Shown in pieces: positions 2,994-14,545 of a stretch of DNA of 33,179 nucleotides (its first letter is position 1; the number at the start of each line of letters is the position of its first letter). The DNA is from Reyranella sp. Lineage in GTDB: Bacteria; Pseudomonadota; Alphaproteobacteria; Reyranellales; Reyranellaceae. Both the position numbers and the translations under genes were made by a program. The stretch is from positions 1-33,179 of the forward strand of contig JAQSDW010000127.1 of NCBI GenBank assembly GCA_029946105.1, read 5' to 3'. Below the pieces are notes generated by a model. It ran no database searches. It saw only the letters and a list, made by a program, of their open reading frames with translations, and had not been told where the DNA came from.

Positions 2994-3539
2994 ATGCGTT
3001 TGGCGCTGACGCCGATTTTTGTCGCTGTCTTTCTCATGTTCGCAGGAGCGAGCTTCGCCATGGACAAGGAAAACACCCTCTACATCGACCTCAAGGACGG
3101 CCGCGTCGTCATCGAGATGCGCCCCGACCTCGCGCCCAAGCATGTCGCCCAGATCAAGAAGCTCGCGCGCGAAGGCAAATATGACGGCGTCGTCTTCCAC
3201 CGTGTCATCGAGGGCTTCATGGCCCAGACCGGCGACCCCCAGGGCACCGGCAGCGGCGGCATGGGCGAACTGCTGAATGCCGAGTTCTCCAAGGAGCCGC
3301 ATGTCCGCGGCACCGTCTCGATGGCCCGCACCAGCGACCCGAACAGCGCGCGCAGCCAGTTCTTCATTGTGTTCAAGGACTCGAACTTCCTCGACGGCCA
3401 GTACACCGTGTGGGGCAAGGTCACCTCGGGCATGGAGTTCGTCGACAAGATCAAGCGCGGCGTGGGCCAGGGCGGCACGGTCCCGGCACCGGCCGACAAG
3501 ATGGTCAAGGTCCAGGTCGCCGCCGACGCCAAGAACTGA
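2994..3539 (+). CDS. Exported cyclophilin-type peptidyl-prolyl cis-trans isomerase
   Basis: A 181-residue protein. Residues 1-22 form a Sec-type signal peptide ending SFA, so the mature enzyme of about 159 residues acts in the periplasm. The cyclophilin core shows the catalytic FHRVIEGFMAQTGDP motif with its active-site Arg, and a later SARSQFFI motif that lines the proline pocket. It catalyses cis-trans isomerisation of X-Pro bonds during folding of exported proteins. The ATG at 2994 has a GAGG Shine-Dalgarno eight bases upstream. It is divergent from the cta operon and ends at a strong hairpin terminator, so it is probably monocistronic. The exact subtype (PpiA-like) is not certain. Confidence 0.95.
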   Translation: MRLALTPIFVAVFLMFAGASFAMDKENTLYIDLKDGRVVIEMRPDLAPKHVAQIKKLAREGKYDGVVFHRVIEGFMAQTGDPQGTGSGGMGELLNAEFSKEPHVRGTVSMARTSDPNSARSQFFIVFKDSNFLDGQYTVWGKVTSGMEFVDKIKRGVGQGGTVPAPADKMVKVQVAADAKN

Positions 3540-10348: not shown

Positions 10349-12436
10349 ATGGCCGATCTCAAGACAGAAACCATCACCGGCGGCAGGCCAGGTAGCGGCG
10401 CGCATCGCGTGGTGGCGCTGTGCGGGCCGTATCTTTCGGGCAAGACCAGCCTGCTCGAAAGCATTCTCTACGCCACGGGGGCCATCGGCCGGCGCGGTTC
10501 GACGCGCGCAGGCACCTCGATCGGCGATGCCGCCGCCGAATCGCGCAAGCGCGGCATGGGCACCGAGATCAACGTCGCCTCGGTGGATTATCTCGGCGAT
10601 CAATGGACCTTCCTCGACGTCCCCGGTTCGATCGAGTTCCAGCACGATGCCTTCGCGGCCCTTGCGGTATGCGACGTGGCCGTCGTGGTGTGCGAACCCT
10701 CGCCCGAGCGCGTCGTGGCGCTGGCGCCACTGCTGAAATGCATAGAAGACCGCCACATCCCGCACATCATCTTCGTCAACAAGATCGATTCGGCGGAAGC
10801 GCGCGTGCGCGACATGCTGGCGGCCCTGCAGTCGGTGTCGACGCGCAAGCTGGTGTTGCGCCAGGTACCGATCCGCCGGCCGACCAACAATGGCGGCGAG
10901 GAGATGGTGGGTTACGTCGACCTCGTGAGCGAGCGCGCCTACCGGTACAAGAGCAGCGGCGCTTCCGATCTGATCGAGATGCCGGCCGAGATCCTGCCGC
11001 GCGAATCAGAGGCCCGCCGCGAGCTTCTGGAAACGCTCTCCGAGTTCGACGACACGCTGCTGGAGCAGCTCATCGAGGACGTCGCGCCGGAGAAATCCCT
11101 GATCTACCGCGACCTCCACGATGAATTCGGCGCCGACCAGATCGTGCCGGTGCTGCTGGGCGCCGGCGACCGCGAGAACGGCGTCCGCCGGCTCCTGAAG
11201 GCGTTGCGCCACGACACGCCGTTCGCGGCCGAGACCGCGAAGCGCCGGTCTTTCGGCGGCAATGGCGTCATCAAAGGTACCGCCGTCGCGGAATGCTTCA
11301 AGGTCGTGCACCAGTCGCATGCCGGCAAGCTCTCGCTCTGCCGGGTCTGGTCCGGAACGCTGAGCGAAGGCCAAGCCCTGGGTGGCCATCGCATCGGCAC
11401 GCTCCTGCGGCCTTTCGGCCAACGCCTCGACAAGATCCCCGAGGCCCGGAGCGGCGAGATCGTGGCGCTCGCCAAGGTGGATGTGCTGTCGGGCGGCCAT
11501 GTGCTGGGCGCGACCGGAATCGCCCCGTCGGCCGATTTTCCGGCAGCTCCGCCCGCGGTGTTCGTCCAGTCGCTCGCGGCCAAGAACCGCAACGACGAGG
11601 TCAAGCTTTCGGGCGCCCTGCACAAGATCGTCGAGGAGGATCCGTCGCTCACCTTCGAAGCGCGCGGCGAGACCCACGAACTACTGATCAAGGGCCAGGG
11701 CGAAATGCATCTCAAGGTCGCGGTCGACAAGCTCGCCGGCCGCTACAATGTGGCCGTCGAGACCGCGGTGCCGCGCGTGGCCTACCGCGAGACCATCCAG
11801 GCCGGCGCTCAGCAGCACGCCCGCTACAAGCGCCAGACCGGCGGCCACGGCCAGTTCGCCGACATCAAGATCGAGATCCGGCCGCTGCCGCGTGGTTCGG
11901 GCTTCCGCTTCGTCGACAAGATCGTGGGCGGCGTGGTGCCACGCAACTTCATCCCCGCCGTCGAGGAAGGCCTGATCGACTACCTGAAGGAAGGGCCGCT
12001 CGGCCAACCGGTCGTCGATATCGAGGTCACCCTGTTCGACGGCCAATACCATGCCGTCGACAGTTCCGAGATGTCGTTCAAGATGGCGGCCCGCATCGCC
12101 ATGAGCGAGGCGATGCCGAAATGCCGCCCGGTGCTGCTCGAGCCGATCCTCAAAGTGACGGTGGCCGGGCCCAGCGAATCGACGCCGCGCCTGCAGCGGC
12201 TGATCTCCGGCCGGCGCGGCCAGTTGCTGGGCTACGATACTCGCCCCGGCTGGGACGGTTGGGACGAAGTCTCGGCGCTGATGCCAGAGGCCGAGATCGT
12301 CGACATGATCGTGGAGATCCGCTCGGTGACGCAGGGTGTCGGCACCTTCCGCACCGAGTTCGACCATCTCCAGGAACTGGCGGGGCGCACCGCCGAGCGC
12401 ATTGTCGAGGAAGCCAAAAAGCACCAGGCGGCGTGA
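10349..12436 (+). CDS. EF-G-like translational GTPase with altered switch II
   Basis: A 695-residue protein with EF-G domain order: G domain (about 18-270), domain II (about 295-385), III, IV (about 470-590) and V (to about 680). G1 is GPYLSGKT (26-33) and G4 is NKID from Asn144. G3 reads DVPGS (90-94), where canonical EF-G has DTPGH; the His that activates water for GTP hydrolysis is replaced by Ser94. Switch I is also degenerate. It is a paralogue (EF-G2-like group), not the housekeeping fusA, which would lie with the str operon. AGAGGGAGG eight bases upstream fixes the ATG. Its role is uncertain; ribosome binding is likely, normal GTP turnover is doubtful. Confidence 0.88.
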   Translation: MADLKTETITGGRPGSGAHRVVALCGPYLSGKTSLLESILYATGAIGRRGSTRAGTSIGDAAAESRKRGMGTEINVASVDYLGDQWTFLDVPGSIEFQHDAFAALAVCDVAVVVCEPSPERVVALAPLLKCIEDRHIPHIIFVNKIDSAEARVRDMLAALQSVSTRKLVLRQVPIRRPTNNGGEEMVGYVDLVSERAYRYKSSGASDLIEMPAEILPRESEARRELLETLSEFDDTLLEQLIEDVAPEKSLIYRDLHDEFGADQIVPVLLGAGDRENGVRRLLKALRHDTPFAAETAKRRSFGGNGVIKGTAVAECFKVVHQSHAGKLSLCRVWSGTLSEGQALGGHRIGTLLRPFGQRLDKIPEARSGEIVALAKVDVLSGGHVLGATGIAPSADFPAAPPAVFVQSLAAKNRNDEVKLSGALHKIVEEDPSLTFEARGETHELLIKGQGEMHLKVAVDKLAGRYNVAVETAVPRVAYRETIQAGAQQHARYKRQTGGHGQFADIKIEIRPLPRGSGFRFVDKIVGGVVPRNFIPAVEEGLIDYLKEGPLGQPVVDIEVTLFDGQYHAVDSSEMSFKMAARIAMSEAMPKCRPVLLEPILKVTVAGPSESTPRLQRLISGRRGQLLGYDTRPGWDGWDEVSALMPEAEIVDMIVEIRSVTQGVGTFRTEFDHLQELAGRTAERIVEEAKKHQAA

Positions 12437-12547
12437 CGCCCACACGGTCGTTCACAAGCCGGTGACTCCGCAGCAGCGTGCCTTCTCCGGCGGGCGGGTT
12501 TCTATCACACTGGCCTTGTGGAGCAGTTCCACGAGGAGAATGTCACA

Positions 12548-12982
12548 ATGTTCAGCAGACGGTCTCTGATGGTGGGCGGCCTGGTGATGGCAGCCGCACC
12601 GTCTTTGGCCCGCGTCGCGCAAGCCCAGGCTGGGCGTCCGACGCTGGTGTTTGTCGGTCACGAACTTTGAGGCGGCTGCAAGATCTGGCGTGCCCAGTCT
12701 GAGCCTGTGCTTCTGGCGTCCGACGCCTACAAGAAACTCGACTACCGCGTCGTCCATCCAGCGGACCTGTCGCTGATCCTCAAGGAAGAAAGCTGGCCGG
12801 CCGATGCGCGCCGGGTTCGGACCGCCTTTCTCACGAGCGACGAAGGCATGAAAAACCCCAATGCCACACCGCGCTTCATCCTGGCACAGGACGGCAAGAT
12901 CATCTTCACAGCCACCGGCAATGCCGGCTGGAAGGAAAAGATGTGGCCCAAGGTGTTGGAAGTGACCGGGACCAGCGCCTAG
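12548..12982 (+). CDS. Candidate selenoprotein: Tat-exported thioredoxin-like protein with a U-G-G-C motif (in-frame TGA at codon 41)
   Basis: 145 codons from ATG 12548 (GAGGAG nine bases upstream) to TAG 12980-12982, with one internal TGA at 12668-12670. Residues 1-28 form a Tat signal peptide (SRRSLMVGG, cleavage near AQA). The mature part looks like a thioredoxin fold: strand TLVFVG, then H-E-L-U-G-G-C with Sec41 and Cys44 where thioredoxins have CxxC, and a cis-Pro candidate at TPRFIL (Pro108). It aligns without a gap over all 144 residues to the tandem paralogue, which has Ser41 and Cys44, and the code downstream of the TGA is conserved. A SECIS-like hairpin follows the TGA at canonical spacing. 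The alternative is a recent nonsense-mutated pseudogene. No selA/B/C/D gene is visible here. Next genes: paralogue and msrP. Confidence 0.78.
12671..12705 (+). promoter_or_regulatory. Bacterial SECIS-like hairpin directly after the in-frame TGA
   Basis: Counting U of UGA as 1: lower stem GGCU (7-10) with AGCC (35-38), an internal loop, AGA (14-16) with UCU (31-33), a bulged U17, then CUGG (18-21) with CCAG (27-30) and a 5-nt loop C-G23-U24-G-C. In E. coli fdhF the SelB contacts are also a bulged U17 and loop G23 and U24, with four base pairs between bulge and loop. The loop here is one base larger. The paralogue's matching stretch does not form this structure. Predicted by hand; no energy calculation was run. 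Confidence 0.75.
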
Positions 12983-13013
12983 TCGTCTTCACCTCCAGGC
13001 TGGCTTGCTTCAT

Positions 13014-13050: not shown

Positions 13051-13485
13051 ATGTTCGATAGGCGATCACTGGTGATGGGCGCCGCGGCGATGGCGGCAAC
13101 AGCATCTCTTGCCGAGCGGGCCGTGGCCCAAGCCGGCCGCCCGATGCTGATCTTCGTCGGCGATCAGACGTCGGAGGAGTGTAAGATCTGGCGCACGCAG
13201 TGGGAGCCGATCTTCGTCGCCGCCCCTGTTTACAAGAAGCTCGACTACCGGGTGGTCTACCCCGCCAAGTCGTCCGATCTCGCCAAGCCACAGAGCTGGC
13301 CCGCCGATCTGCGCTGGGTTCTCGACGTTTTCCTGATGAGCCAGGTCGGCGTCCAGGAAGGCTTCGAGGTTCCGCGCTTCTTCCTGGTACAAAATAGGCA
13401 GGTCACCTTTTCCACCTCCGGCAACAGCGGTTGGCGGGAAGTGATGTGGCCCACCCTTCTGGATGTGACGAACTCGATGCCTTAA
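13051..13485 (+). CDS. Tat-exported thioredoxin-like protein, SxxC paralogue of the candidate selenoprotein
   Basis: 144 residues, exactly the length of the upstream gene and alignable without gaps. Residues 1-28 are a Tat signal (DRRSLVMG, cleavage near AQA). The mature part has the strand MLIFVG, then S-E-E-C with Ser41 and Cys44 at the positions of Sec41 and Cys44 upstream, KIWRTQWEP, a shared YKKLDYRVV block and Pro108 before the next strand. One conserved thiol and no CxxC suggests it is not a standard dithiol oxidoreductase; it may be a partner or a binding variant. The frame is open further upstream, but ATG 13051 matches the paralogue's start. A GGGGG ribosome site lies within an inverted repeat. 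Function unknown. Confidence 0.85.
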   Translation: MFDRRSLVMGAAAMAATASLAERAVAQAGRPMLIFVGDQTSEECKIWRTQWEPIFVAAPVYKKLDYRVVYPAKSSDLAKPQSWPADLRWVLDVFLMSQVGVQEGFEVPRFFLVQNRQVTFSTSGNSGWREVMWPTLLDVTNSMP

Positions 13486-13582: not shown

Positions 13583-14545
13583 ATGCTGATCAAACGTACG
13601 CGCGGCTGGGAATTGCCCGAGCGCCTGGCGACCCCGGAAGATCACTATTTGCAGCGCCGGACAATGGTGCGCGCGATGGGCCTGGGTGCGGCTTCTCTGG
13701 CGCTGCCCGCGACGTCGTTCGCCCAGGACAAGTCGACCGATCCGTCGTCCGGCCTCTATCCGGCCAAGCGCAACGACAAGTATGGCGTGCCGACGCCGAT
13801 GACGGCGGAACGACAGGCTACGACCTACAACAACTTCTACGAGTTCGGGACCGACAAGAGCATCTGGCGCGACGCGCAGAAGCTCGAGGTCCGGCCGTGG
13901 ACGATCAAGGTTGGCGGCATGGTCGAGAAGCCGTTCGAGATGGGTATCGACGACCTGCTGGCCAAGGTGCAGCTCGAGGAGCGCGTCTACCGTCACCGTT
14001 GCGTAGAAACCTGGTCGATGATCGTGCCGTGGAGCGGCTTTCCGGTCCGCTCACTGGTCGAGGTCTGCAAGCCGCTGAGCGGCGCCAGGTTCATCGTCAT
14101 GAAGACGCTGTCGAAACCCTCGGTGATGCGCGAGCAGCGCGATCTGCTTTATCCCTGGCCCTACACCGAAGGGCTGGCGATGGACGAGGCCATGAACGAT
14201 CTCGCGTTCATCGCCACCGGGCTCTACGGCAAACCGATCCACAAGCAGAACGGCGCGCCGCTGCGCCTCGTGGCACCGTGGAAGTACGGGTTCAAGAACG
14301 TGAAATCGATCGTCAGCGTCGATTTCACCGACAAGCGCCCGGTCACCTTCTGGGAGAAGCTGCAGTCCAGCGAATATGGCTTCTGGGCCAACGTGAACCC
14401 CGAGGTCGCCCATCCACGCTGGAGCCAGGCGACGGAGAAGCCGCTGGGCAGCGATGGCCGCATCCCGACCCTGCTCTACAACGGCTACGCCGAGTTCGTG
14501 TCCGGCCTCTACACCGACCGCAAAGCGGAAAAGCTGTTCATGTAG
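13583..14545 (+). CDS. msrP: Periplasmic protein-methionine-sulfoxide reductase, molybdopterin catalytic subunit
   Basis: A 320-residue protein of the sulfite oxidase fold family, formerly YedY. The N-terminus carries a Tat signal (LQRRTMVRAMG, cleavage near SFA at about 48), as expected for a cofactor-loaded export substrate. The molybdenum-ligating Cys140 sits in the RCVETWSM segment, and the WPYTEGL and KYGFKNVKS stretches are typical of MsrP. The enzyme reduces methionine sulfoxide in oxidised periplasmic proteins, drawing electrons from quinol through the membrane haem protein MsrQ, which is not adjacent here. GGAG eight bases upstream supports ATG 13583. The two thioredoxin-like genes precede it by 97 bp on the same strand, pointing to a periplasmic redox-repair theme. 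Confidence 0.94.
   Translation: MLIKRTRGWELPERLATPEDHYLQRRTMVRAMGLGAASLALPATSFAQDKSTDPSSGLYPAKRNDKYGVPTPMTAERQATTYNNFYEFGTDKSIWRDAQKLEVRPWTIKVGGMVEKPFEMGIDDLLAKVQLEERVYRHRCVETWSMIVPWSGFPVRSLVEVCKPLSGARFIVMKTLSKPSVMREQRDLLYPWPYTEGLAMDEAMNDLAFIATGLYGKPIHKQNGAPLRLVAPWKYGFKNVKSIVSVDFTDKRPVTFWEKLQSSEYGFWANVNPEVAHPRWSQATEKPLGSDGRIPTLLYNGYAEFVSGLYTDRKAEKLFM

Follow-up and report, generated by a model that had tools for sequence, protein, structure and literature searches.

Gene and reading frame

The stretch of DNA analysed here (33,179 nucleotides of contig JAQSDW010000127.1 from Reyranella sp., hereafter the window) carries at positions 12548–12982 a gene that we predict to encode a selenoprotein, with selenocysteine (Sec) at an in-frame TGA (Table 1). 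An earlier reading of the window, the original prediction, had claimed a single TGA in an otherwise intact frame, and re-reading of this interval bore it out: the 145 codons run from the ATG at 12548 to the TAG at 12980–12982 and are interrupted by the TGA at codon 41 and by no further stop. The same prediction placed a Cys at residue 44 and a Pro at residue 108, where both were indeed found, and described a gapless match to a tandem paralogue, which holds for residues 1–142 at 52% identity. In this tandem copy the site corresponding to Sec is Ser rather than Cys, giving SxxC, and there is no internal stop.

Table 1. Features of the locus, in window coordinates. Tat, twin-arginine translocation; SECIS, selenocysteine insertion sequence. 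Branches A and B are defined in the text.
Feature	Positions	Strand	Details	Basis
Predicted selenoprotein gene	12548..12982	+	144 residues, TGA41 as Sec, TAG stop	TGA at aligned codon in 68/75 same-family genomes
Predicted Tat signal peptide	12548..12628	+	RRSLMVGG...AQAQ	Sequence
TGA codon 41, predicted Sec	12668..12670	+		Sequence and aligned codon in relatives
Cys44, predicted resolving partner of Sec41	12677..12679	+	UGGC	UGGC in 68/69 branch A loci
SECIS-like hairpin	12682..12699	+	GA-(bulged U 12684)-CUGG-CGUGC-CCAG-UC	Conservation, folds, covariation
Pro108 of PRF motif	12869..12871	+	Expected cis-Pro	Invariant in 59/59 aligned members
Tandem paralogue	13051..13485	+	Ser (TCG) at Sec position	Ser copies form one clade
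MsrP	13583..14545	+	Periplasmic methionine-sulfoxide reductase catalytic subunit	NCBIfam NF003767, 414 bits versus cut-off 207, equivalog
EF-G-like GTPase	10349..12436	+		NCBIfam NF009379, 953.4 bits versus cut-off 513

Conservation of the TGA codon

We searched 75 whole genomes from this bacterial family and found a match in every one. Codon 41 was read in 72 of them and in locus L032, which lies on a contig labelled Bradyrhizobium, for a total of 126 reads; three genomes (G020, G062 and G078) gave weak matches only, and one further match, in G052, falls short of codon 41. The reads comprise 78 TGA, 41 Ser (TCN) and 7 Cys (TGC) codons. At the genome level, 67 genomes each have a single full-length copy with the aligned TGA, and a 68th has a copy truncated at a contig end. 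The other seven family genomes are G023, with Cys, G077 and G084, with a Ser copy only, G016, with a distant Cys relative, and the three with weak matches. The TGA reads fall into two groups: branch A, with 69 loci (one from each of 67 family genomes, plus L088, an additional copy in one of them, and L032), and branch B, with nine. In the public genome collection, all 15 loci have the TGA; their titles include Reyranella, Rhodospirillales and Enhydrobacter, and many of them belong to the same genomes as the family set. This conservation is far beyond chance and, because it extends to 68 of the 75 same-family genomes, the TGA at codon 41 is predicted to be a Sec codon and not a mutation. Of 387 genomes covered by a class-wide search, six had the gene, each of them a member of its own family, and a profile of Cys and Sec members reached eight, the extra two being G125, with a Cys homologue, and G192, where the match is a C-terminal stretch at a contig end and the site lies outside that stretch.

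The ratio of nonsynonymous to synonymous substitution rates (dN/dS), computed over 64 sequences, is about equal on either side of the TGA, with medians of 0.28 for codons 28–40 and 0.30 for codons 55–144; the decay downstream of the TGA that had been named as a warning sign was thus not seen. Database annotation gives a different picture of the gene. Among 69 database protein relatives, 60 begin past the TGA, three end at residue 40 and six extend across the Sec site, where their residues are Trp, Ser, Asp, Asp, Asp and Ser. The 60 late starts would fit a TGA that is a true stop, followed by a short protein (mostly 80–91 residues) starting downstream of it. Such proteins would, however, share no common internal start: codon 54 could serve as one in 4 of 69 loci, and the earliest usable start codon lies anywhere between codon 54 and codon 132. 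The signal peptide, the strand preceding the TGA and a WRAQSEP motif are all conserved upstream of any such start, the dN/dS of 0.28 ahead of the TGA speaks for coding there, and the short product would be missing both the opening strand of the fold and its active-site helix; we consider this explanation very unlikely.

The SECIS-like hairpin

The TGA is followed by a hairpin resembling a bacterial SECIS (bSECIS). For scoring, we took branch A without L088 and L032 (67 of its 69 loci), all nine of branch B, 40 of the 41 Ser copies (one is cut short) and all seven Cys copies. Each of the 67 branch A loci scored carries the 13 bases CTGGCGTGCCCAG unchanged, as do L088 and L032, and CUGG-CGUGC-CCAG after the TGA is identical in 67 of the 68 TGA-bearing family genomes. 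All four stem pairs form in 67/67 branch A and 8/9 branch B loci, compared with 9/40 Ser and 3/7 Cys copies, and the CGT loop is present in 67/67, 9/9, 2/40 and 0/7, respectively. The branch B stem differs by compensatory changes while its CGU loop is kept; the loop Arg codon is always CGT in branch A and mostly CGC in the Ser copies. Synonymous entropy in 64 sequences is 0.24 bits over codons 42–51 against 0.86 over codons 54–144, whereas in 36 Ser copies the corresponding values are 0.73 and 0.83.

These data also bear on whether the gene might be a pseudogene, recently or generally decayed, next to a paralogue that is intact and without the TGA. The peak of synonymous conservation at the hairpin, the aligned TGA in 68 of 75 genomes, the downstream dN/dS of 0.30 and a window frame without any other stop all argue otherwise; for the family these counts refute the idea, and we find it hardly credible for the locus itself.

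Covariation was assessed in the 54 distinct sequences among the 78 TGA loci, for a six-pair hairpin with a bulged base that was named from folds; RNAalifold returned the same six pairs for these sequences. Of the cells, 97.8% pair, three pairs are changed on both sides (one being UUGG/CCAA) and the covariation score is 0.144 versus 0.069 when shuffled. Sliding the partner strand gave 9.6–51.2% paired, a control that favours a structure drawn from the same sequences. A SECIS-like element, with covariation, is present here; the original prediction had counted the lack of a SECIS as adverse. Published bSECIS limits are a loop of 3–9 nt, a stem of 4–16 bp, G in loop position 1 or 2, a distance of 16–37 nt from the UGA and a minimum free energy of at most −7.5 (PMC13188914). 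The hairpin lies within them, with a five-base loop, CGUGC (12689–12693), that has G second and lies 18 nt past the TGA, a stem of 4 bp plus two past the bulged U, and −13.9 kcal/mol for a 45-nt stretch; the hairpin itself begins 11 nt past the UGA. We take the bulged U under a short stem and the GU in the loop to be a likeness to the fdhF element of E. coli.

Other scans added little. The Rfam model SECIS_1, which describes the eukaryotic element, had no match in the genome, but its control matched nowhere either and the result is uninformative; two Rfam matches in 12500–13000, both under cut-off, were taken as chance. A scan of the own genome for a TGA with this hairpin found the present gene and C84:18890, and a reversed control pattern also found one; since the control equals one and the frame at C84:18890 is full of stops with another frame open, we set that place aside as chance. 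The number of viral contigs with the hairpin and a TGA was zero.

Selenocysteine machinery

The original prediction had pointed to selA, selB, selD and a tRNA-Sec gene as what should accompany a genuine Sec codon. In the own genome, selB was found at 454 bits (cut-off 242), adjoined by a tRNA-Sec (71.4 bits; anticodon tca in ARAGORN), together with a formate dehydrogenase alpha gene containing one TGA (1428 bits; G000:C203:2835-5885, L151); this part of the expectation thus stood, and the result for selA is taken up below. Above its cut-off, selB occurs in 72 of the 75 family genomes, and for this reason its co-occurrence within the family cannot discriminate; among the 15 genomes from which L018–L032 come, 14 have it. 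The FDH-N/O formate dehydrogenases are known exported selenoproteins that combine Sec with Tat export; they are molybdoenzymes of unrelated fold. The own formate dehydrogenase alpha differs from the present gene also in the stretch after its TGA, whose sequence is unlike this hairpin.

Predicted fold and active site

The claim that Sec takes the CxxC position of a thioredoxin agrees with a structure model, in which the fold is predicted to be that of thioredoxin, residues 41 and 44 sit at the active-site helix and Pro108 directly precedes the strand E109–114. In the model, UxxC appears to start the first active-site helix and is accompanied by the expected cis-Pro, as in thioredoxin folds. One of the 69 branch A loci has UAAC in place of UGGC, and exactly one Cys besides Sec is present in 65 of them. 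The closest solved folds are mostly thioredoxins, including SoxS, the periplasmic thioredoxin of Paracoccus pantotrophus (3dml, 3d4t), which shares 18% identity with our protein and is absent from its sequence-profile matches; SoxS is not known to be a selenoprotein.

Export of the product via Tat is predicted from its N-terminus. The Arg pair is present in 67 of 69 branch A loci, and the Pfam model TAT_signal matches the product with E 0.0091 and 16.4 bits, under its cut-off of 22.7.

UxxC selenoproteins of thioredoxin fold listed in a recent catalogue include PF00085 (thioredoxin), PF13098 (thiol:disulfide interchange), NF040730 (SaoT), NF047660 (HUIPC-motif) and NF045500 (GOS_C) (PMC13188914). 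Our protein resembles them in its predicted fold and in carrying a predicted Sec for the attacking Cys of CxxC, as described there (PMC13188914). Nevertheless, there is no convincing sequence match to them (among the NCBIfam matches listed, the one selenoprotein model was trx7_PDZ_seleno, E 0.15, in 1 of 59 members), and the present family differs in its predicted Tat export and tandem Ser copy. Among thioredoxin models of Pfam, the best match was Thioredoxin_7 at E 0.009.

Other residues at the predicted selenocysteine site

Alternation of Sec with Cys, which had been proposed as a check, was found at the exact site. A profile built from the Cys members, branch B and L142 matched 547 proteins, and among the matches listed Cys occupies the site in 120 of 120, mostly as DCPPC or DCQPC. 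Two of the seven TGC reads in the family are close relatives. One, L142 (G023; 3001-3423), has FLGNDQCGFCKMWR in a full frame and lies in the interval bounded by the EF-G-like gene and MsrP, which contains other genes as well; the other, L089, has NELCGQCKIWRAQSEP at the site but a later TAG. As a Cys counterpart in the same EF-G-like/MsrP neighbourhood, L142 offers a natural Sec/Cys comparison.

The 41 Ser reads come from paralogues that are mostly tandem; the attacking residue is lost in them, and Cys44 is usually retained. The Ser copies group together as a separate clade of 18 rows (100/99) in a 75-row tree, in which the Sec rows need at least three changes, the rooting being arbitrary. 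This tree does not settle the direction of the Sec/Cys change: the Cys row L142 stands beside all of branch A, and long branches meet.

Neighbourhood and proposed function

At 62 of 67 loci the EF-G-like gene lies upstream, and MsrP lies downstream in 62 of 67 (30 of 32 where there is room of at least 1,500 bases). A gene flanked by the Ser copy and MsrP, L143:3445-3957, encodes an Mpo1-like protein (2-hydroxy-palmitic acid dioxygenase family; 67 bits, cut-off 24), and a similar gene is similarly placed in L144 and L142. With UxxC, one Cys besides Sec, the fold, the predicted Tat signal and the nearby MsrP, the product is best read as a thiol reductase of the periplasm that belongs to an oxidative-repair locus, its likely role being Sec-based thiol reduction in the envelope.

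By the known bacterial mechanism, SelB with Sec-tRNA-Sec would bind the hairpin and insert Sec41 against release factor 2, and the folded protein would exit through Tat. Placed next to the expected cis-Pro108, where the active-site helix begins, the Sec41 selenolate would react with a disulfide or sulfenic acid, and Cys44 would resolve the adduct to give a U41–C44 selenenylsulfide. Re-reduction might come from a DsbD/CcdA-type thiol carrier in the membrane. In such an envelope repair locus, as the constant MsrP neighbour suggests, MsrP would repair methionine and the gene product thiols.

Of the MsrPQ system for periplasmic methionine-sulfoxide repair, MsrP is the constant downstream neighbour here; the product matches no MsrP or MsrQ model. 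As a likely MsrQ exists elsewhere in the genome, MsrP does not necessarily depend on this protein and probably keeps its usual partner; the product as electron donor of MsrP was set aside. Branch B (L079–L087, from G081, G029, G058, G076, G063, G083 and G022) has UGPC in eight of nine loci and U-D-P-C in one. At six of its loci, flanks of up to ~3 kb held no MsrP or EF-G-like match, and ten neighbour proteins scanned had nothing in common. In G058, a gene pair for an Xre-like antitoxin and a RES-domain protein lies downstream of the branch B gene (L171:4039-5335). These loci, and the likely MsrQ, could mean that the selenoprotein is peroxidase-like or handles metal or selenium, its MsrP neighbourhood being incidental. 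The UGGC and UGPC motifs with a second Cys three residues on, the expected cis-Pro and the solved folds closest to the model, mostly thioredoxins with periplasmic SoxS among them, argue instead for a thiol reductase, and we hold the alternative to be rather unlikely.

Several observations weigh against the selenoprotein assignment or the proposed function. In the own assembly, selA gave no match above cut-off, only a fragment of 36.6 bits, but selB lies at a contig end, with its first base at 38, and selA (563.7 bits) abuts selB there in the relative L035. The drafts G031, G047 and G057 (89, 60 and 96% complete) have the TGA gene and no selB match, which in draft assemblies is not decisive, and the genome of L032 is the one of the 15 from the collection without selB above cut-off. 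(L032 carries a branch A gene with an identical hairpin, and its contig is perhaps wrongly binned.) The minimum free energy of the 45-nt stretch was no better than that of shuffles (z 0.30). The contig-cut copy of G052 (L141) keeps its TGA, with W47 changed to R and CCGG for CUGG in the stem, 40 bases from the end; these changes could be a sequencing error at the contig end or early decay. Sense codons other than Cys, which the original prediction had counted as adverse, do occur in part: Ser or Asp occupies the Sec site of some homologues; the Ser copies are one clade, and the Asp copies, without Cys44, have lost both redox residues, since Asp41 comes with His44 (P0006, P0008 and P0030). The likely MsrQ lies on another contig, its 125.4 bits narrowly missing the cut-off of 130, and the function shared with MsrP is suggested by the neighbourhood alone. 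Finally, P0003, a full-length relative on a metagenome contig of 966 bases, has Trp at the Sec site, as if the TGA were decoded as another amino acid by near-cognate or suppressor reading. This Trp may be a table-4 translation of TGA by the gene caller. Furthermore, TGG occurs in none of the 126 codon-41 reads, in which the sense alternatives are Cys and Ser, TGA terminates 24 of 69 of these very genes, and Trp decoding would leave no role for the hairpin and the Sec machinery; we judge it very improbable.

Taken together, we put at about 0.92 the probability that 12548–12982 is one intact gene with a conserved TGA, encoding a predicted selenoprotein of thioredoxin fold, which Tat would export and which would likely reduce oxidized cysteines in the periplasm.

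Novelty and significance

The original prediction had suggested a new selenoprotein family, and our comparisons agree with this. Over 59 members, the best matches had E 0.0083 in Pfam and 0.012 in NCBIfam; the product of this gene had no NCBIfam match and in Pfam only the sub-cut-off TAT_signal, and it did not reach the curated cut-off of any named thioredoxin or selenoprotein family of either database. None of the families in Table 1 of the 2026 catalogue, which covers 119 selenoprotein families, resembles this one (PMC13188914), and we recognized no description of it in the openly licensed literature searched. What thus looks new is the family as such, together with branch B and the tandem Ser copy; the kind is already known, because many thioredoxin-fold selenoproteins are. 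As far as sequence alone allows, the prediction of Sec coding is about as sure as it can be. A broader and rather unlikely proposal is that UGGC, nearly universal in its family and obscured by annotation, and UGPC represent two branches of an undescribed superfamily serving Sec-dependent envelope repair with MsrP, the Ser copy being a non-catalytic partner or a trap for the same clients.

The analysis adds a well-supported selenoprotein family whose gene standard annotation cuts in two, and indicates that Sec use beyond formate dehydrogenase is nearly universal in one alphaproteobacterial lineage. With Sec at the locus, a Ser copy beside it and a Cys version in one genome in the same neighbourhood, it would offer a good setting in which to ask what benefit Sec brings over Cys.
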